Below are positions 1,905-23,329 of a stretch of 23,536 nucleotides of DNA, one piece after another. Location of the stretch: the IMG/VR virus record IMGVR_UViG_3300042924_006373, positions 1 through 23,536 of that record; one strand, written 5' to 3'. This DNA is from a virus. Numbering within the stretch: the stretch's first letter is position 1; every line of letters begins with the position of its first letter. The position numbers and the translations under genes are program-made. The notes beneath the pieces are model-generated. The model saw nothing but the letters and a program-made list of their open reading frames with translations. It searched no databases and was not told the origin of the DNA.

Positions 1905-4217
1905 TTAAGTGTATACGCCACAGTCTACTACTGTAAAAGTAGACTCAACTGGAGCACCATTAACATAAGTACCGCAATCTAAAATCTCAGGTGTAGCATC
2001 TAAAGGAACACCGTTAAGATAAGTTCCACCGTCAATTTGACCTGACCTAAAACTCGGACTGTAGTCTGTTAGCGGTTGATCTAAAAGTCCAAACTTAGCC
2101 GATTGTATTAACTTTGTATCCAGGTTAAACATCTTTTGCATAATGGTTAACATGGTTGTTGTTGTGTTAAGGGGAACACCATCCACGTTCAACTGGTTTC
2201 CGTCCCGTCTAACACTGTCTGTTGCCAACATTGTAATTAGAGCAGGATCATAATTAGTTGTTTCAACTGGCAAATTCCCATCACCAATTGTTTCCTTTAA
2301 CCCAACCCAAGGAGTGCCAAAGTTCAGCATTTTAAAACGTTCTAGTTGCTTCCGTAGTGTTCCACTTTCTTTGGTAAGTTGTTTATAAAACAGTTCTGCT
2401 GTTTCTCCTACAGGTGCATCGTTTGGTTCCAACAGCCAAGTATTCACATACTCGTGCACCTTTAAATTTTGCACGCGACAATATCCACTTGTTACTTGGT
2501 TAATAGGATAGATAATAACAAAATTATTTTCATCAATAATCTGGCTAACAAGGAAATCTTCGGATAAAGCATTCCCGCTTGTAAACTCTAAGTGAACACG
2601 TTTGTTTGCCTGAAGATTGTGAGGTTCTTCAGTTGTAACTGTTATATTTGCACCTGATTGCGTATAGAGTGCTCCAATATTAAATCTGTCATTTCCTTCA
2701 TCATGAAGAATAGACCACATAGCTGCGTAAATATGTTTGCACCAACGTAGTTGATAATACGCAAGCAAAGCTGTGGAATCTTCTGGCGCATCTTCATAAG
2801 TACCTAATTGATAAAAATTATTGATTACAAGGTAACCAAAAGAGTTATAAACACCTACATCGTCTCGCGTATCAATTAAATTGTTATCTCGATCAATTCT
2901 AAAACCAGGTCGAACTATTCGTGCAGGAGTATTGGGAAATTTTCTTTTCTGGCTTTCATCATAAAAGTTATATGCTTCTCGTTTTAAATAATCTTGACAG
3001 CTACATTGGTAACGAATCTCTGTTGTTAAATAACGTCCTACTTCAAATCCTCTATGAGCTGGCGTAATTGTTTTTGAGATTCCCTGGGTATCCGGTTGGT
3101 TTGTAACTGGATTAAAGATGCGTGCTGCATAACTATCATCACGTTGGAACTTTATTTCGTTTGTATTATTATCTATTCCTGTAACGCTGTATCCAACATA
3201 ATCTGAATAATTAAATCCACGAATTCTTCTAAATACTGTTAGGTTGCCGCTGGTTGAACCGCTCTCAATAGTTGTTACTGAAAATTGAGTAGAGTTTAAA
3301 ACAGTAACTTGATAGATACTTGAATCAACCCCACCGCTAGAAACATCTAGATAGACTTCATTATCTGTTGCTAACCCATGAGCAACGCTACATGTAATTG
3401 TTGCTGTTGATCCTGTTCTACTATATGTAGAAACTAAACCAGGATCTTTCTCAACTACACGGTCTACTAAACGTTCTCCTGAAAACAAAGAAAGTGGAGT
3501 AGGAAGATAACGTAAACCTACGCGCTGCTCAACCCACAAAGGATCACTAAAAACAGTAACTCGTTGTGCACTTAAATTTCCACTAGTAGTTACTGACGTT
3601 CCTGCAGTACAAGTAAAAGTATTACTAGTTACACTTGTAATAATTAAAGTATTGCTGACTGCTGCTCCAGAAGAAATATTTAAATAGATTGAATCTCCAA
3701 CAGAGTAACCATGGTTAACAATAGAGACGGTTACAGTGGTACCTGCTTGGCTGTAAGTTCCGTTTTTTACGGCCTGTAAATACCTTACAGACTTAATGGG
3801 TAATCCGAAATTATAAAAGTTAAATGAGTTTGCATCTCTTATGGCAACAATCTGGTGTCCTGATTCTGTATGTGTACTAGGAAAAGCAAACAACCGAGCA
3901 GGAATAAAAATTCCAGGATACTGTTGGAATGTACAATAAATCCGATAATCGCCACGAGAGCTTCGGCCTGTTGCTTGGCCCCCAAAAACAGTTTGCGTTA
4001 AAGTGTATAGCTCATAACCACGTCTCCAGCGGTTCCACATGGAGTCGTGATTGTAGAATCTAATCCGGCTGATTTGTTTTCCATCAGCCGGCTCAAAATC
4101 AAAAGGATTGTCTTTTTTATTGGAAGCAAATTGATTTGCTTCTTTTTTTAATTGATTCGAAAAAGATTTAACGTGGCCATCAAAACGATTCCCAAAACTA
4201 TCTTTTCGTCTTGGCAT
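1905..4217 (-). CDS. Large tail-type structural protein with beta modules and a SWIM-like motif
   Basis: A 770-residue protein starting at ATG 4217, three nucleotides after the upstream stop. A charged N-terminus (MPRRKDSFGNRFDGHVKSF) is followed by a body with three related beta modules at about residues 153-222, 264-330 and 516-584. Each carries an H-G-like turn (NHGYSVGDSIYL, AHGLATDNEVYL, PHNLQANKRVHL) and ends near TSGN or TSGY. They resemble the 'E1 FCCH-like' modules often annotated in phage tail proteins. Between modules two and three lie YQCSCQDY (C405, C407) and WCKHIYAAMW (C493, H495), a CxC...CxH pattern like a SWIM zinc finger with an 85-residue spacer. The C-terminus repeats short units of the type DGGTYLNGVPLD, DCGTYVNGAPVE and DCGVYT. 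It sits between structural and fibre genes, so a tail role is likely. The family is not recognised. Confidence 0.75.
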   Translation of the reverse strand: MPRRKDSFGNRFDGHVKSFSNQLKKEANQFASNKKDNPFDFEPADGKQISRIRFYNHDSMWNRWRRGYELYTLTQTVFGGQATGRSSRGDYRIYCTFQQYPGIFIPARLFAFPSTHTESGHQIVAIRDANSFNFYNFGLPIKSVRYLQAVKNGTYSQAGTTVTVSIVNHGYSVGDSIYLNISSGAAVSNTLIITSVTSNTFTCTAGTSVTTSGNLSAQRVTVFSDPLWVEQRVGLRYLPTPLSLFSGERLVDRVVEKDPGLVSTYSRTGSTATITCSVAHGLATDNEVYLDVSSGGVDSSIYQVTVLNSTQFSVTTIESGSTSGNLTVFRRIRGFNYSDYVGYSVTGIDNNTNEIKFQRDDSYAARIFNPVTNQPDTQGISKTITPAHRGFEVGRYLTTEIRYQCSCQDYLKREAYNFYDESQKRKFPNTPARIVRPGFRIDRDNNLIDTRDDVGVYNSFGYLVINNFYQLGTYEDAPEDSTALLAYYQLRWCKHIYAAMWSILHDEGNDRFNIGALYTQSGANITVTTEEPHNLQANKRVHLEFTSGNALSEDFLVSQIIDENNFVIIYPINQVTSGYCRVQNLKVHEYVNTWLLEPNDAPVGETAELFYKQLTKESGTLRKQLERFKMLNFGTPWVGLKETIGDGNLPVETTNYDPALITMLATDSVRRDGNQLNVDGVPLNTTTTMLTIMQKMFNLDTKLIQSAKFGLLDQPLTDYSPSFRSGQIDGGTYLNGVPLDATPEILDCGTYVNGAPVESTFTVVDCGVYT

Positions 4218-4220
4218 AAA

Positions 4221-4991
4221 TCAATAGTAGCCGCCTTGAGCGTTGATGTAGAAACCGTTTGTTAAAGCAGTCGCGCCATTGGCAGCTGCATAAATTGCCT
4301 GTCCCCTTTGCAGTACTAAACCGCGATTTTTAGGTGCCACTTCATTATTTGCGCCAGCAAAATTAGCACCCGCATGGGGAACAGGATGGTTAATTAAAGG
4401 AAGTTTTTCATTTAACGTTAAACTGTAATACTGACTAAGAGGATTGCTATCAATACTAATAGTAAACAGAGGGAAGAACTGGTTGGTGTTTGTGATTGTG
4501 GATACGTTCGTCAGATAAAAACAAATGTCAACAGGTAAATAAACACTGCAGTTACCACTTGTTGTTGCACTGATTGTTGCTGTTGCAGTAAAGTTGCTAG
4601 CTGTAACATCTGTTACTTCAAGCAATTCATCAGTACCAGTACCGCTTGTAAAGTTTACATAGATTTTTTGTCCGACTTTTACGTTAGCGTTTGCTGCAAC
4701 AATAACAACATCAAGACCAACTTGCGAATAGGTACCAGTTGTCGGGCTTACCGGATCAACAAATAAAGGAGCTTCTTTGGAATAACGTAACCAAATCTCG
4801 TCAACATACGCACCGCTAATCGAAGTATCTGTTAAAGCACTGTCAACATCAAGAATTTTTGTAGCATTGCCAATAGCAGTGGGAATCAAACTGGTAATAA
4901 AAACCTGACCAGAAGCAACAGTCAATAATGCACTGTTAAGCAGTGGCCGGTCGATCATTGCTGGCAATTTGTTAGTGCTTGACGATGCCAC
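4221..4991 (-). CDS. Structural protein with one beta module
   Basis: A 256-residue protein with a GTG start at 4991; GGAG lies ten nucleotides upstream. Residues 85-151 (starting TGTYSQVGLDVVIV, with VKVGQKIYVNFTSG and TTSGN) are related to the three modules in the following 770-residue protein. The flanking parts form a separate domain: the N-terminus is SALLTVASGQVFITSLIPTA and the C-terminus is RGLVLQRGQAIYAAANG, ending GFYINAQGGYY. That outer layout resembles small beta-sandwich virion proteins into which the module appears inserted. It precedes the large tail protein with only three nucleotides between them, so the two are probably translated together and assembled in the same structure. 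Function beyond 'virion protein' is inference. Confidence 0.7.
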   Translation of the reverse strand: MASSSTNKLPAMIDRPLLNSALLTVASGQVFITSLIPTAIGNATKILDVDSALTDTSISGAYVDEIWLRYSKEAPLFVDPVSPTTGTYSQVGLDVVIVAANANVKVGQKIYVNFTSGTGTDELLEVTDVTASNFTATATISATTSGNCSVYLPVDICFYLTNVSTITNTNQFFPLFTISIDSNPLSQYYSLTLNEKLPLINHPVPHAGANFAGANNEVAPKNRGLVLQRGQAIYAAANGATALTNGFYINAQGGYY

Positions 4992-6121: not shown

Positions 6122-6402
6122 TAGAACTGATTCTGAATTGGTCTTTTATTAAGAATAACAGGAGGCACCATATCACTAGCAGAGCGATCCACCTCACGCA
6201 CGTATGCTGGATTATTTAATTGAAAACGAGGATTATTGCTACCGTTATAACCAACAACATAAGAACAAGGTGTGTGTTGTTCTTGCTTACCTGGCTGCAA
6301 AGGATTAGATAACTCAGCAGTAGTCATGTTGTAATCCTGATACATGTTCCCGTATTGAACAGGAAATGAAGAGCTATAACCAGGTACGTTTGCAAACCTC
6401 AT
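6121..6402 (-). CDS. Small hypothetical protein (MRFAN N-terminus)
   Basis: A 93-residue protein starting at an ATG that overlaps the stop of the M23-like gene (ATGA). It begins MRFANVPGYSSS. The 402-residue protein at 21021-22229 begins MRFANITNYLSN and also directly follows a gene with the same C-terminal tag. The rest is polar (Asn, Pro, Tyr, Gln) with no membrane segment or recognised domain. A minor virion role is inferred from position. Confidence 0.55.
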   Translation of the reverse strand: MRFANVPGYSSSFPVQYGNMYQDYNMTTAELSNPLQPGKQEQHTPCSYVVGYNGSNNPRFQLNNPAYVREVDRSASDMVPPVILNKRPIQNQF

Positions 6403-7061
6403 CCTAAATAATTAACACGAGGAGCTTGGAAAAGTTTTTGTGCCATCTCAAGCGGCGAGAATCTTTGTTTGCTTTGTGTTTTAAAACGATCTACAATGTA
6501 ATTCTCAAGAAGTTGTTTTGGTGTAATTCTTTCTTGTTTCTCACCATCAACAAGATCAATGACAATATTAATTGGTTGACCAGGGATTGATTGTTGTTGT
6601 TGTTGTTGAGTTTTTTGCGTTTGAGCTACTGAATCCATACCCAAAGTTGCTTCTTTTCCGCCTTTAGTATGAAGCAATTCAATTTCATATCCTTCTGGAG
6701 TCTGAATAGTTCCTAACCCTCTTCCTGGTTTAAAAGCTCCCATTCCTTTCCAGTAAATTGGCGTGCCTCCAGGAATACCAAAATCCACGCCCCTGTGATA
6801 AGTAGAGGCTCCAGCAACGGGCGCAGACCTTGGACCGTATGGAGAAGTAATTTGAAAAGCTGGCGTAAACTGTTGACCGGATTGTTTATATAACGGAGTT
6901 TTATTTTCTCCAATCAGCAGGTTTTGCAATCCAGTGCGCCAAGTAGTTGGATCAATATATTGTCCACCTTTTTTAACACGAACATCTAAGTGAGGACCTG
7001 TTGTAGGGAAAACGTCCTCACCTGCTTTTGCAACAAATCCGGTGTGAATAATGCCAGCCAT
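6399..7061 (-). CDS. M23-like (LytM) peptidase with apparently permuted motifs
   Basis: A 220-residue protein; TAAGGTC precedes ATG 7061. Residues 71-104 (ITSPYGPRSAP, YHRGVDFGIPGGTPIYW) match the start of an M23 zinc endopeptidase domain, with the HxxxD pair at H89 and D93. Residues 117-131 (GTIQTPEGYEIELLH) fit the following strands and a catalytic-type His (H131). The element that normally closes the domain, GPHLHF, appears at the N-terminus as TTGPHLDVRVKKGG (H24, D26), so the motif order looks circularly permuted and a zinc-ligand His is replaced by Asp. After a six-Gln run (residues 152-157) comes a C-terminal segment shared with the neighbouring transglycosylase. It probably cleaves peptidoglycan peptide cross-links from the virion or during lysis. 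Activity is inferred. Confidence 0.75.
   Translation of the reverse strand: MAGIIHTGFVAKAGEDVFPTTGPHLDVRVKKGGQYIDPTTWRTGLQNLLIGENKTPLYKQSGQQFTPAFQITSPYGPRSAPVAGASTYHRGVDFGIPGGTPIYWKGMGAFKPGRGLGTIQTPEGYEIELLHTKGGKEATLGMDSVAQTQKTQQQQQQSIPGQPINIVIDLVDGEKQERITPKQLLENYIVDRFKTQSKQRFSPLEMAQKLFQAPRVNYLG
6591..6608 (-). repeat. CAA trinucleotide run encoding six glutamines
   Basis: Six perfect CAA codons (TTG on the plus strand) encode the glutamine linker between the peptidase part and the shared C-terminal domain of the M23-like protein. Such a run can change length by slippage without breaking frame. Confidence 0.8.
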
Positions 7062-7069
7062 GACCTTAA

Positions 7070-7801
7070 TTACATTTTTAAATATTCAACACGCGGAGTA
7101 TTGACAAGACTATGTGCCAACTCCATTGCTGTTGGAACGGAAGAGCCGTCTTGATTGCTAACTCTATTTTTAAATTTATTTAAGAGAGCAGTAAGCGGAT
7201 CTTGTGTTTCTTCTTGTTTTCCTCTCCTATTGATCGTAATGTTAATGGTTGGAATACCGCCTGTTTGCTGTACCGTTGTTGCTTGTGGGCTAGCTGGAAC
7301 TGGTTGGCCAACAGATTGTTTTTGTTGTTGGTAATAGTTGTACAGGTCACCGAGTTTTTTAGAAGGCTGCCCGTAGTAACTTCCGCCACTAGATGTTGGC
7401 AATGAAGCCCACTCTGGAGCAAGCTTGTCAGTAACAACTCCAAATTTTTCTCCCTTTAAGAATGGTTGTAACGCACCGCGTTTTTTATCAATTAAGTAAA
7501 GAGCTGCAAGGTCTTGTGATTTTGGAGAAAAATCAGGTAACCCTAAAGCTTTAGAAGTGCCTTGCCAGGTTGGCGTTAAAAATTGGTATCCTCCAGCAGC
7601 TGTGCTTGTGTAGCCCCCTCCAGTGACGGCTTTATCAGGATGGCGCCAGCCTTTGGACGTATCAAACTTACCACCCCCAAACATGGTTTGATAGCCAGAC
7701 TCTCCTGGAGTGCCCTCGGCATAACGGATGGTATTTAACAGCGCCCGAACTTCGGGACGTGTTTGAAGAAGCGTTTCGTAGTATTGACGTAGCTGAGACA
7801 C
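7070..7801 (-). CDS. Lambda-R-like lytic transglycosylase (GH104 type)
   Basis: A 243-residue protein from a GTG at 7801, four nucleotides after the upstream stop. A TTG at 7849 in the same frame would add 16 residues, and neither has a clear ribosome site. Residues 17-150 resemble phage lambda R endolysin. RYAEGT holds the probable catalytic Glu (E29, matching lambda SEGT), followed by GYQTMFGGGKF, GGYTSTAAGGYQFL, LGLPDFSPKSQDLAALYLI, KKRGALQPF, PEWASLP and YYGQPSKKL. Enzymes of this type cut the glycan backbone of peptidoglycan without hydrolysis. A Gln/Pro linker leads to a C-terminal domain (from about residue 183, INITINRRGKQEE to TPRVEYLKM) shared with the M23-like protein encoded next. 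The position among virion genes and the shared tail suggest a virion-associated enzyme rather than, or as well as, a classical endolysin. Confidence 0.85.
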   Translation of the reverse strand: MSQLRQYYETLLQTRPEVRALLNTIRYAEGTPGESGYQTMFGGGKFDTSKGWRHPDKAVTGGGYTSTAAGGYQFLTPTWQGTSKALGLPDFSPKSQDLAALYLIDKKRGALQPFLKGEKFGVVTDKLAPEWASLPTSSGGSYYGQPSKKLGDLYNYYQQQKQSVGQPVPASPQATTVQQTGGIPTINITINRRGKQEETQDPLTALLNKFKNRVSNQDGSSVPTAMELAHSLVNTPRVEYLKM

Positions 7802-7805
7802 GGGC

Positions 7806-8285
7806 TTATCGGAAGTTGTATTCGAAGTAGAAGCGGGTTCCAACAGCAACGTCTGCGGGTCCAGGTAGGGCCTGAATGAATTCCGCGCCTTCCCGCTCGA
7901 AGCGATAGCGGGCTTGCATAGGGTTTCTATAATTAGCGACGTACAAATGAAGAGCTAAGCGATCAGTTTCATACAGATAAATCTCCGTCCAAGTTTTTAG
8001 TGTGTCTTTAAAATCGGTCGTGGTAATAGTACGGTCAACGTCACCAGCAATATTCTCAAGGCGATTACGAGGAACTGTATTGTTGTTTACACTACCGGTC
8101 ATATCGGTGCGTTTTTCAGCCTCATCGCACCGAGTAACCTGTTCGACCAATTTTTGATACCAGAAAGAATCTGGTACGTTATTAAGAGCTTCTTCTAGTC
8201 GAGCAAGATCACCAGCAGGGATGGATGTGGTGTTATATCCCAGGTGCCAACGAATCTTTGACTTTAAGAAACTATCTAGTTGCAT
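7806..8285 (-). CDS. Probable head-tail connector or completion protein
   Basis: A 159-residue protein from ATG 8285, with no Shine-Dalgarno sequence but a small hairpin at 8304-8320 upstream. It is mostly helical in appearance, with a charged middle (VTRCDEAEKRTDM, NRLENIAGDVDRTI) and an ordered C-terminal half: DTLKTWTEIYLYETDRLALH, then RFEREGAEFIQALPG and VGTRFYFEYNF. I do not recognise a named family with certainty. Size, position after the capsid genes and before tail genes, and the helical N-terminus fit an adaptor or completion protein that binds the portal. The role is inferred from synteny. The GTG start of the next gene lies four nucleotides after its stop. Confidence 0.5.
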   Translation of the reverse strand: MQLDSFLKSKIRWHLGYNTTSIPAGDLARLEEALNNVPDSFWYQKLVEQVTRCDEAEKRTDMTGSVNNNTVPRNRLENIAGDVDRTITTTDFKDTLKTWTEIYLYETDRLALHLYVANYRNPMQARYRFEREGAEFIQALPGPADVAVGTRFYFEYNFR

Positions 8286-10981: not shown

Positions 10982-11710
10982 TTAAGTATCTTGCGATTTT
11001 TCAGGCTTGTTTGCTTTTTCTGCAAACGCCCTAAGGAATCTACCGACGCCAACACCAGCCAGTGCTGTTGCTGCTGGTGACAGCGCGTAACCGGCAACTT
11101 GATACAAACCAGGTTTACCAGAAACAGCAACACCTGCTTGATTCAAAAGATTTGTACCACGACGTGTTGCTTCTATTTCCGAAAAAATGCGGCCACTATT
11201 ATTTAGATAGTTCATTGCAAGAGCAAGGCCAGTTGCCCGGCGAGTTGACGGGGACAGGGCACTAACCCCAATGGTTGCTAATCCAACAACATTTGGATTT
11301 AGCCCAGTATATAAATTACTTTGAATGTAGTTAGGAGTTCCACCACCTGCTGTAATGCTTTGATGGCCAAGCTCGTGGCCAAGAGTAAACTTACTGGCAA
11401 ATGGATAGTTTAAAGAGATAGCTTTTTTTGCTGAATTAGAATAACTAGCGCCTGTAGGACTAGTATTAACCGTAACGTTTGGCTTGACTCCTGTTTGTTC
11501 TGCAAATTTATTAATAATGTTTCTTGAATCTTCAAAAGTTGAGTAATAAGTTTTTCCTTGTAAATTTGTAGTACGTTTAACAGCTGCACCTGTTTCACGC
11601 AACCCTTCTGTTCGATACTGTTGAACAGCTTGTTTTTGTAACTTTTTAACTCCAGTAAAACCAGCTAAGGCAGCTGCTCCACCAAGTGCAGTTTTAAAAA
11701 TAGAGTCCAT
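10982..11710 (-). CDS. HELGH zinc-metallopeptidase-like protein, copy B
   Basis: A 242-residue paralogue of the preceding gene. The active-site helix is SKFTLGHELGHQSI (H112, E113, H116), and a second motif, SGRIFSEIEATRRGTNLLNQ, supplies E178 or E180 as the likely third zinc ligand. HExGH followed by E-[FI]-x-A-[ST]-RR resembles the YugP-like Zn_peptidase_2 family from memory. Ala/Gly-rich hydrophobic stretches occur at residues 8-20 (LGGAAALAGFTG), 138-153 and 212-225, as in membrane-associated members. It lacks an obvious ribosome site, starts nine nucleotides after copy A, and lies directly upstream of the capsid gene, where prohead proteases are normally encoded. A role in processing the head or internal proteins, or in ejection, is inference. 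Confidence 0.7.
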   Translation of the reverse strand: MDSIFKTALGGAAALAGFTGVKKLQKQAVQQYRTEGLRETGAAVKRTTNLQGKTYYSTFEDSRNIINKFAEQTGVKPNVTVNTSPTGASYSNSAKKAISLNYPFASKFTLGHELGHQSITAGGGTPNYIQSNLYTGLNPNVVGLATIGVSALSPSTRRATGLALAMNYLNNSGRIFSEIEATRRGTNLLNQAGVAVSGKPGLYQVAGYALSPAATALAGVGVGRFLRAFAEKANKPEKSQDT

Positions 11711-11719
11711 TACTACAAA

Positions 11720-12388
11720 TTAAATTTCTGTTAGCGCGTTTTTAAAAGACCTTAAAAACCGTCCTGCAGCAAGGCCGCCAAGTGCAGTCATTGCTGGTGT
11801 TGTGGCGTAGGCTGCTGATTGAAATACACCTGGAGCAGGTGAAACAGAATAACCAGCTTGATTTAAAAGTTTAGTGCCTCGACGGCTAGCTTCTATTTCA
11901 GAAATAATACGCCCAGAATGATTTAAATAATTCATTCCTAAAGCCAAAGTTGTTGCTCGGCGCATTGATGGAACCATTGCTCCAACACCAACCGTAGCCA
12001 AACCAACAACATTTGGATTCAATCCTTTATAAGTATTCTCTTGAATCCATCGAAAAGAATCGTTGCTTCGGCCAATAGACTGGTGGCCTAATTCATGGCC
12101 AAGTGTAAACTTACTTGCGCTAGGAAAACTTAAAGAAATAACATTATCTTTTGTTGATGAGTAACTAGAACCTCCAAGATTAGCAACAACTTCAGGTGCA
12201 GGTTGCTGCGTTGATTTTGTATATTGATCTAAGATACGTTGTCGATCTTGTTCAACAAAAGCACTGCCTGTTTCTTGCAATCCTTTTTTTCGATATTGTT
12301 GAACACTTGATCGTCCTAACTGGTAAGCGCCAACAGCCCCAGCTGCTGCTGCAGCTGATTGAAGTAAGTTTGTAACTGCTGTATTCAC
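11720..12388 (-). CDS. HELGH zinc-metallopeptidase-like protein, copy A
   Basis: A 222-residue protein with a GTG start at 12388. It has the same architecture as the next gene: an Ala/Gly-rich N-terminus (LLQSAAAAAGAVGAYQLGR), a shared VQQYR-[KT]-GL-ETG segment, the zinc site FTLGHELGHQSIG (H98, E99, H102), GLNPNVVGLATVGVGAM, and SGRIISEIEASRRGTKLLNQ (E164/E166). The two copies agree at roughly two thirds of positions over the core (residues 88-214) and diverge between residues 42 and 88. Both keep every catalytic residue, so neither looks like a decayed duplicate. The family resemblance to YugP-like peptidases rests on the two motifs and their order. Substrate and role are unknown; see copy B for context. 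Confidence 0.7.
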   Translation of the reverse strand: MNTAVTNLLQSAAAAAGAVGAYQLGRSSVQQYRKKGLQETGSAFVEQDRQRILDQYTKSTQQPAPEVVANLGGSSYSSTKDNVISLSFPSASKFTLGHELGHQSIGRSNDSFRWIQENTYKGLNPNVVGLATVGVGAMVPSMRRATTLALGMNYLNHSGRIISEIEASRRGTKLLNQAGYSVSPAPGVFQSAAYATTPAMTALGGLAAGRFLRSFKNALTEI

Positions 12389-19658: not shown

Positions 19659-20444
19659 TCAAAGATAACGATACTGGGTAGCACCGGCATTACCAATAGA
19701 AGTTAAGAAACTTTCGCCCATTCGTTGTGCACCAATTTGGGCCTGGCGACGCATAGCTGCATCTGTTTCAAGAGCTGTCCGCAGTTGTGCACCAGCAGCT
19801 TCACGACGAAGATCAAACTCTTTAGTGCGTTGTTGATAAGCTTCAATATAAGGAGCATAGCGCAGAGAGTTAATCATGCTTTGTTGTTCCTGTTGATTCT
19901 GGAAACGAAGCTGACTTTGAATAGTACCAGCAGGATCAGCATAGCTTACAGCACCTGGAGGACCATACTGACTAAGATCACCAGCAACGCCGTAATTAGG
20001 AACATCAGGCATCTGCGGCAGACCTGCACCAGTCACTTGCTGACCAATACCCGCAGCACCTGTTGCAGCCCTTGCAGCTTTACCAGTTAGGCCGCTAACA
20101 GGGCCAGCTAAGCCACTGGCAACGCCGCCAATAAGAGGAGCAGCAAGGAGGCCACCAGCAAGAGGAATACCGATCTGTGCACCTGCTTTTAAACCGGATG
20201 CCATAGTTCCAAGAGGTGTCCCCGCCATAGCAGCAGCAGCCGGACGAAAATAGCTAGCACCAGCGCCTTTTGCAGCTTGTAATCCACCACGTCCTAACCG
20301 TCCGCCAACGTAACCTAAACCAGCACCGGCAGCAGCTTTACCAAAATCACCCTCTCGTAATCCAGGTAACGCACCTAAGCCTGCGCTAAGCATGGGCAAG
20401 GCTTGCATTGCCATCCGCCCTGCTCCAACTAAAATAGGTAACAT
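19659..20444 (-). CDS. Gly/Ala-zipper protein, candidate ejection protein
   Basis: A 261-residue protein from ATG 20444, preceded by a 9-bp inverted repeat. Residues 1-145 are extremely Gly/Ala-rich with repeated small-xxx-small spacing (GAGLGYVGGRLGRGGLQAAK, PLAGGLLAAPLIGGVASGLA, GKAARAATGAAG), suited to membrane insertion or tight helix packing. Residues 165-255 are helical and charged (QSQLRFQNQQEQQSMIN, TKEFDLRREAAGAQLRTALE). The two-part pattern resembles T7 gp14-type internal virion proteins that form a channel across the host membrane during DNA entry. That likeness is compositional only; no homology is claimed. Confidence 0.6.
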   Translation of the reverse strand: MLPILVGAGRMAMQALPMLSAGLGALPGLREGDFGKAAAGAGLGYVGGRLGRGGLQAAKGAGASYFRPAAAAMAGTPLGTMASGLKAGAQIGIPLAGGLLAAPLIGGVASGLAGPVSGLTGKAARAATGAAGIGQQVTGAGLPQMPDVPNYGVAGDLSQYGPPGAVSYADPAGTIQSQLRFQNQQEQQSMINSLRYAPYIEAYQQRTKEFDLRREAAGAQLRTALETDAAMRRQAQIGAQRMGESFLTSIGNAGATQYRYL

Positions 20445-22229: not shown

Positions 22230-22910
22230 TTACATGTACCTTACTGATGGTGTTGAAAGCATGTCTTTAGCCATCTCAAAAGAACTGGGTGCACCTCCTT
22301 GACTAATGTGATACATGTAGCTCGGGAACTTATAGTTCCGAGCATAGATTAATTCCATCTGACGTTGATGCTGTAAAGCATTTAAATCAGCTGCAGTTGG
22401 TCCAGCAGGCGTAGATGCTGATGGCATAGAAGGTACATCACCATACTGAACACTTTGACCACTGCTATAGCTTTCAGGGAAAATAGAAGTTGTAATAGCT
22501 TTGGTCAACGGTTCAGTAAGAGCGTGTGTACTAACAACACCTAAACCTAATTTTCCAGCACCTGCTGCCATCCCTGCTAAACGTGTTGGCATTTGACCGG
22601 ATAATCCCATCTGGCCAAGGCGGTCAGCTAAAGCAGGCTGTAAACCTGAAACACCAGGAACAGCTCTTTTTAATCCAGCCAAGGTTGTTCGTTCAATTGG
22701 CCCACTCAAGGCTCCAATCGTTGCTGAACGTAAAAGACTTTGTTCAAGTGGAGGGGCATCTTTGCCCAGTATTACTGGTAAACCCTGCTCTAATGCAAGG
22801 TTAGCACCAGCGCCTAAAGCAGCTTCTTTGAGAAAAGCCCTACCACCAGCAGGAGCAACAATTGGAGCTAAACGTTGTCCAGCAACGCGAAGTACTTGAC
22901 CGAGCATCAT
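22230..22910 (-). CDS. Ala/Gly-rich protein with the shared C-terminal tag
   Basis: A 226-residue protein starting at a double ATG that overlaps the upstream stop. The first two thirds are Ala/Leu/Gly-rich and helical (APAGGRAFLKEAALGAGANL, RLAGMAAGAGKLGLGVVSTH). The middle is polar, and NYKFPSYMYHISQGG leads into SFEMAKDMLSTPSVRYM. This ending matches the last residues of the transglycosylase and the M23-like peptidase in the window. No enzymatic motif is seen. It may be an internal virion protein directed to the same site as those enzymes by the common tail. Confidence 0.6.
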   Translation of the reverse strand: MMLGQVLRVAGQRLAPIVAPAGGRAFLKEAALGAGANLALEQGLPVILGKDAPPLEQSLLRSATIGALSGPIERTTLAGLKRAVPGVSGLQPALADRLGQMGLSGQMPTRLAGMAAGAGKLGLGVVSTHALTEPLTKAITTSIFPESYSSGQSVQYGDVPSMPSASTPAGPTAADLNALQHQRQMELIYARNYKFPSYMYHISQGGAPSSFEMAKDMLSTPSVRYM

Positions 22911-23329
22911 GATATTGAAGTCCCTTCTTGGCCAGGGAATTGTTTACTGTTTTGGAAACCGTTTTGCGCTCTTTCTTTAATTAAAGAAGTCAAACGTCCA
23001 GGTAAAACAGGATCTTCTACAATTTTACTCTGATCATAAGATTGTAGAAACTGATTTAAATAATCAGATCCGCTTACATTAAACGGATCTTTACCAGTGT
23101 TCGGTACAACTTCTGTTGTTCCTGGCGCCACTGTTAAATCAATTGTTGGATCAAAACTGCCGTAGTTAAAGTTACGTGGATTTGTATCTTTTAAATTTGA
23201 AATCCAACGATTTAAAAACTCACGGCTACCTGCTGTTTGGTCCTGAGCAAAAGGTCCCAGAGAATAACCAGGCTCTTTTGATTCAGCAGAGACTCGTGAA
23301 ATATAAGGTAGTTGGATTTTAGGTGCCAT
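22907..23329 (-). CDS. Hypothetical protein, 140 residues
   Basis: ATG 23329 lies three nucleotides after the preceding stop; the end overlaps the next ATG. The product is polar and rich in Pro, Asn, Ser and Gln (YISRVSAESKEPGYSLGPFA, SGSDYLNQFLQSYDQSK), without membrane segments or repeats. No family is recognised. Tight coupling with the following Ala/Gly-rich gene suggests the same structural module. Confidence 0.5.
   Translation of the reverse strand: MAPKIQLPYISRVSAESKEPGYSLGPFAQDQTAGSREFLNRWISNLKDTNPRNFNYGSFDPTIDLTVAPGTTEVVPNTGKDPFNVSGSDYLNQFLQSYDQSKIVEDPVLPGRLTSLIKERAQNGFQNSKQFPGQEGTSIS

Follow-up and report, generated by a model that had tools for sequence, protein, structure and literature searches.

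The window, the whole 23,536-base stretch of DNA that was analysed, is an entire IMG/VR virus record and, judged from its proteins, a fragment of a virus related to Synechococcus phage S-EIV1 (KJ410740). Its portal protein shares 52.6% identity with the S-EIV1 portal across 98%, and the terminase, the major capsid protein, the M23-like peptidase and several more proteins have homologues in S-EIV1, with broad synteny. S-EIV1 is described in two papers as a freshwater cyanophage with a short tail whose genes are mostly without matches (PMC7156551, PMC4916379). Three minus-strand genes of the window, encoding a lytic transglycosylase (LYT), an M23-like peptidase (M23) and an Ala/Gly-rich protein (AG), end in a similar sequence (Table 1).

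LYT is listed with a TTG start codon and its real start may be elsewhere. Its profile matches the lambda lysozyme structures 3d3d/1am7 over residues 31-154 (4e-17) and E45 within a YAEG motif is invariant. Based on homology across the catalytic domain, LYT is predicted to be a lambda-type lysozyme/transglycosylase. Lambda lysozyme R (GH104-type; 1am7, 3d3d), which the catalytic domain of LYT resembles, is a soluble endolysin without a tail, whereas LYT is encoded in a structural cluster and carries a linker and a tag.

The peptidase matches the end of the Pfam M23 profile with residues 10-38 (0.0068), the start of the PHROG endopeptidases profile with residues 68-103 and M23 structures in the PDB (4e-4). 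H24/D26, H89/D93 and H131 are invariant. The predicted zinc ligands of the HxxxD motif are present as H89-R-G-V-D93, with both H and D invariant, but the canonical HxH C-terminal to HxxxD is absent from 19/19 sequences, which instead have H24-L-D26 N-terminal to it. On this basis the protein is classified as a permuted M23-like peptidase, not a canonical M23 member; it appears to be circularly permuted, with GPHLDVRV, corresponding to the end of the profile, preceding the HxxxD part. A Foldseek search with the AlphaFold model of M23 (modest pLDDT) returned no significant match. A genome scan for this M23 type chiefly returned ordinary bacterial M23 domains. The same permuted subtype (H24-L-D26 before H89-xxx-D93, and H131) is embedded in a tape-measure-like protein on an Acinetobacter contig, probably a prophage, which represents another virion context for the subtype. 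This Acinetobacter protein (L182) likewise has HLD in place of HxH.

The AG gene falls between the terminase gene and the edge of the window, within a group of Ala/Gly-rich genes that lies upstream of the terminase, and AG has no family match above chance in Pfam, PHROGs or PDB sequences. Similar sequences were also observed in two other places. Beside the major capsid gene, the neighbouring paralogues o242 and o222 (window 10982-12388, minus strand; 53% identity) carry an HELGH motif (FTLGHELGHQSI) and are possibly zinc metallopeptidase-like. Further, o256 and o770 (window 1905-4991, minus strand) have in common a repeated domain of ~64 residues with <=47% identity, present in up to three copies in o770.

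Table 1. Positions in the window of the three tail-bearing genes and their parts.
Feature	Position	Strand	Remarks
LYT and M23 genes	7070..7849, 6399..7061	(-)	among capsid/head genes, structural cluster
LYT, lambda-lysozyme-type lytic transglycosylase (predicted)	7070..7849	(-)	259 aa; PHROG endolysin 4e-34
LYT catalytic domain, residues ~30-182	7304..7762	(-)	contains confident AlphaFold parts
LYT shared tail	7070..7255	(-)	PTINITI strand-like start, helix 218-231, helix 241-249, terminal motif
LYT core 18-residue tag TAMELAHSLVNTPRVEYL	7079..7132	(-)	core of shared tail
M23-like peptidase, permuted motif order and shared C-terminal tail	6399..7061	(-)	220 aa
M23 shared tail	6399..6578	(-)	INIVIDL strand-like start, helix 181-193, helix 203-212, terminal motif
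M23 core 18-residue tag SPLEMAQKLFQAPRVNYL	6405..6458	(-)	core of shared tail
AG, Ala/Gly-rich, third tag carrier	22230..22910	(-)	226 aa
AG core 18-residue tag SSFEMAKDMLSTPSVRYM	22233..22286	(-)	matrix and profile comparison

The shared C-terminal tail and its carriers

The three similar stretches described in the initial annotation were recovered where it had placed them, at the very C-terminal ends of three minus-strand ORFs, with LYT ending in TAMELAHSLVNTPRVEYLKM, M23 in SPLEMAQKLFQAPRVNYLG and AG in SSFEMAKDMLSTPSVRYM. Searching all six frames of the window with a loose version of the motif that it had proposed returned three hits, namely LYT, M23 and AG only, and the profile similarity on which it had made its claim depend proved to be far above chance when the tails of the two enzymes were aligned (57 columns, P 1e-15). 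Its notion of a tail common to all three proteins stands for the last 18-20 residues, while the full domain of ~55-60 residues is limited to LYT and M23. LYT and M23 are built alike: after the conserved catalytic part come a variable linker, frequently rich in Gln, a strand-like INI segment, helix 1, helix 2, which begins at SP/NP-(M/L)-E, and a terminal ..P.xNYF motif with final NYF/NYL (YL in the window phage). The AG tail consists of helix 2 and the terminal motif only. In AlphaFold predictions of the two enzymes as single chains, the cores are more confident, while the linkers (LYT 182-216, M23 133-178) are low and the helices (LYT 218-231 and 241-249, M23 181-193 and 203-212) of low confidence. 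A linker followed by two low-confidence helices is the picture expected of a peptide that becomes ordered on binding to a partner, though low confidence by itself proves nothing.

Within the window alone, pairwise BLASTP matches are marginal by themselves (LYT-M23 tail E 7.6e-4, AG-LYT 0.031). Profile-profile comparison of AG gave P values of 4.8e-6 against the LYT tail and 5.3e-6 against the M23 tail, over 20-23 columns. An 18-residue weight matrix was trained on the tails of LYT and M23, with AG left out, and applied to 12 related phages. All seven AG ends scored 21-33 bits, whereas the runner-up among 835 protein ends scored -2.9 and the highest-scoring of 137,245 internal windows 8.4; among these 835 ends, no further carriers beyond LYT, M23 and AG rose above background. 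The tag is found 0-4 residues from the C-terminus in all carriers, and every clade phage with all three genes in the data has three tagged families and no others. A blind within-genome tail search found that LYT/M23/AG matches recur in several other phages, and AG relatives from a separate scan have the same ending (PTVNYF, PTTRYF, PTANYF). Judged by these comparisons, one end sequence is carried by otherwise unrelated proteins of a phage.

Chance or low-complexity likeness is ruled out by two controls: LYT and M23 tails compared with other-family tails of the same phages gave nothing better than 1.8e-3 in 114 comparisons, and reversed tails gave 0.12-0.56. Similarly, recent DNA duplication or gene conversion is ruled out by the divergence of the tags of one phage at the DNA level, with nucleotide identity of 44-51% and identical residues using the same codon in only 37-64% of cases. 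Such strong codon divergence at identical residues points to selection, not recent copying, as what maintains the match.

Two other proteins were considered as carriers and rejected. The Ala/Gly-rich o261 (window 19659-20444, minus strand) ends in YRYL here and in YRYF in all other clade phages, an L/F switch that parallels the three tags (YL/YL/YM here, YF elsewhere); it is similar by eye but has no matrix score, and homology is unsupported by profile comparison. Directly upstream of AG, o140 (window 22907-23329, minus strand) contains a YLKNFIANYD-like helix resembling the first tail helix of M23. It was the top control comparison (E 0.002-0.003), which is not significant, and it has no tag score.

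Tail type and phage group

The comparison set comprised 80 related loci, with 19 relative contigs rejoined, and relatives were sorted by tail type into groups A-D, group A being that of the window and group D consisting of two sequences. Profile depth is small since the tails evolve fast, and hhalign E values represent single comparisons to be judged against the controls, for which the best E among pairs was 0.016. Inside each group, LYT and M23 tails match one another (A 1.6e-14, B 3e-8, C 7.6e-8, D 2.3e-6). Between distant groups, tails of orthologous enzymes do not match, neither for LYT (A-C 0.012, A-D 0.57, C-D 0.018) nor for M23 (A-C 0.016), although the catalytic parts of the same orthologues share 35-56% identity between the window and groups C and D. 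Group A and group B tails are related to each other. The match of LYT and M23 within groups together with the mismatch of orthologues between distant groups indicates that the type of tail goes with the phage, whichever enzyme bears it. On the strength of these alignments, the tails are old inside a group and altered jointly between groups. LYT/M23 tail scores are also higher within a phage (mean 45) than between phages (30; permutation p about 1e-5, 25 representatives). Within group A alone, own-phage tails are not closer than cross-phage tails (p 0.22), which counts against docking to a common partner.

The AG tag is confined to group A. In group B, the AG orthologue of G018 stops early, without the motif, and in groups other than A, where AG either lacks the tail (G018) or was not found, the shared tail was seen in the two enzymes only.

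In S-EIV1, which differs from the window in its lysozyme and tail type, the place of LYT is held by a different enzyme, a relative of phi29 gp13 that matches the phage tail lysozyme family (PF18013, 2e-36) and is encoded a few genes away from M23. The S-EIV1 lysozyme and M23 tails match each other weakly (E 1.2e-3 and 8.6e-4; best control 0.033), and a tagged AG was not found in this genome. In the S-EIV1 relative L267, the tail of the lysozyme differs from that of its own M23, which again counts against docking. This PF18013 lysozyme (L267:6001-6531) has a tail unlike all other relatives seen, representing either an exception to the rule or a recent tail exchange.

Proposed docking to a common partner and alternative explanations

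The available data suggest that the shared tails let different proteins plug into one docking site, which is probably located in the virion. Specifically, we propose, with a probability of about 0.6, that the tail serves as a modular docking tag at the C-terminus, which would anchor two hydrolases, and in one clade AG as well, to one co-evolving partner, probably part of the virion entry apparatus. Among the readings considered, docking to a common partner draws the most support from the sequence comparisons: there are three carriers only, the tag sits at the C-terminal extreme, predicted order is low and the tails diverge jointly between groups. The earlier suggestion of a targeting or docking signal is thus partly borne out by carriers, position, low order and joint divergence, while binding, a single partner, location in the virion and timing at entry are what we infer. 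Loading of the tagged proteins into the virion is plausible because both enzymes belong to types known from virions and are encoded within the structural cluster, and because AG belongs to an Ala/Gly-rich cluster.

Mechanistically, the flexible and often Gln-rich linker of 35-45 residues would tether the catalytic domain to the INI strand and the two short helices. The free tail would be largely unfolded in solution and would fold upon a single receptor surface of a phage protein, probably in the portal, tail or ejection apparatus of the virion. Once docked, LYT and M23 would be held side by side, as they would be by fusion, and may cut glycan strands and peptide cross-links together at DNA entry. 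In the clade of the window, the last 18-20 residues of AG probably occupy the same or an equivalent site. More tentatively, and with the odds somewhat against it, the tail may represent a lineage-specific C-terminal barcode for lock-and-key virion loading in S-EIV1-like phages. Whatever enzyme gained the local barcode would then dock at one and the same entry site, and enzymes could be swapped while tail and socket co-evolve.

C-terminal wall-binding modules are frequent in peptidoglycan hydrolases, for example in many endolysins, and homology places LYT and M23, the two proteins with the full 57-residue domain, among these hydrolases. The tail could be a cell-wall-binding domain that holds both enzymes on host peptidoglycan or another envelope polymer, and its rapid change between phage groups could track the host. 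We consider this unlikely because the last part of the tail is also found on AG, which has no recognisable enzyme domain, because the tails have no known-domain match above chance in Pfam or PHROG, and because the prediction is a linker with two low-confidence short helices. Neither a known binding family nor a compact predicted fold, as in the wall-binding domains of endolysins, was found.

Similar tails on all carriers and joint divergence between groups would be equally expected if LYT, M23 and AG self-associated by like-to-like helix packing with no separate receptor, and the enzyme fusion in L080 suggests a benefit of being joined. With only the last 18-20 residues present in AG and no coiled-coil-like pattern seen in the tail by inspection, self-association appears improbable. 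Finally, ends of phage structural proteins are often processed and the homology of group A and B tails means that descent accounts for part of the likeness. Even so, it is highly doubtful that the tail has no docking role and is a remnant of ancient duplication or of shuffled domains, or else a signal for processing such as a degron or maturation-protease site: the motif persists despite strongly diverged synonymous sites, tails of orthologous enzymes change jointly, and the window proteins that were searched included no recognisable maturation protease.

Relation to known systems

Bacillus phage phi29 gp13 consists of two domains, a lysozyme and an M23 endopeptidase, and likewise pairs these two activities at one virion place. 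In contrast to the window, where the proteins are separate and would be joined only by the common tail, gp13 is one fused polypeptide, and its lysozyme is of the PF18013 type and not the lambda-R type of LYT. This tail-knob morphogenesis protein 1 (3CSQ) is tail-associated (PMC9662197). LYT and M23 are also fused in distant relatives (L074:9989-11338; L080:9989-11338, L080/G024), as one 450-residue ORF without a tail. These fusions and gp13 indicate that other phages join both activities by different means.

Short end sequences that direct proteins into the particle are known from the capsid targeting sequence (CTS) of the internal proteins IPII/IPIII in T4 and the targeting sequence of P1 DarB (PMC9958956, PMC9024508). 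The tag resembles the T4 CTS as a short end sequence on different proteins, with the virion location in our case being the proposed one. It differs in that the T4 sequence is ~10 aa long, N-terminal and processed by the prohead protease gp21, whereas the tag is 18-57 aa long, found on peptidoglycan hydrolases and not known to be cleaved; its C-terminal position in all carriers sets it apart from T4-type capsid targeting. By analogy, the tag may work like the fused gp13 or the T4 targeting sequence, while belonging to neither.

If this interpretation is correct, the tag would represent natural C-terminal addressing in tailed phages, bringing separate wall enzymes and a structural protein to one site. 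It would also provide a simple sequence handle on entry-apparatus proteins in the large and almost unannotated S-EIV1-like lineage. Since the tail tracks the phage instead of the enzyme, a search for a co-varying partner would test whether tag and socket co-evolve.
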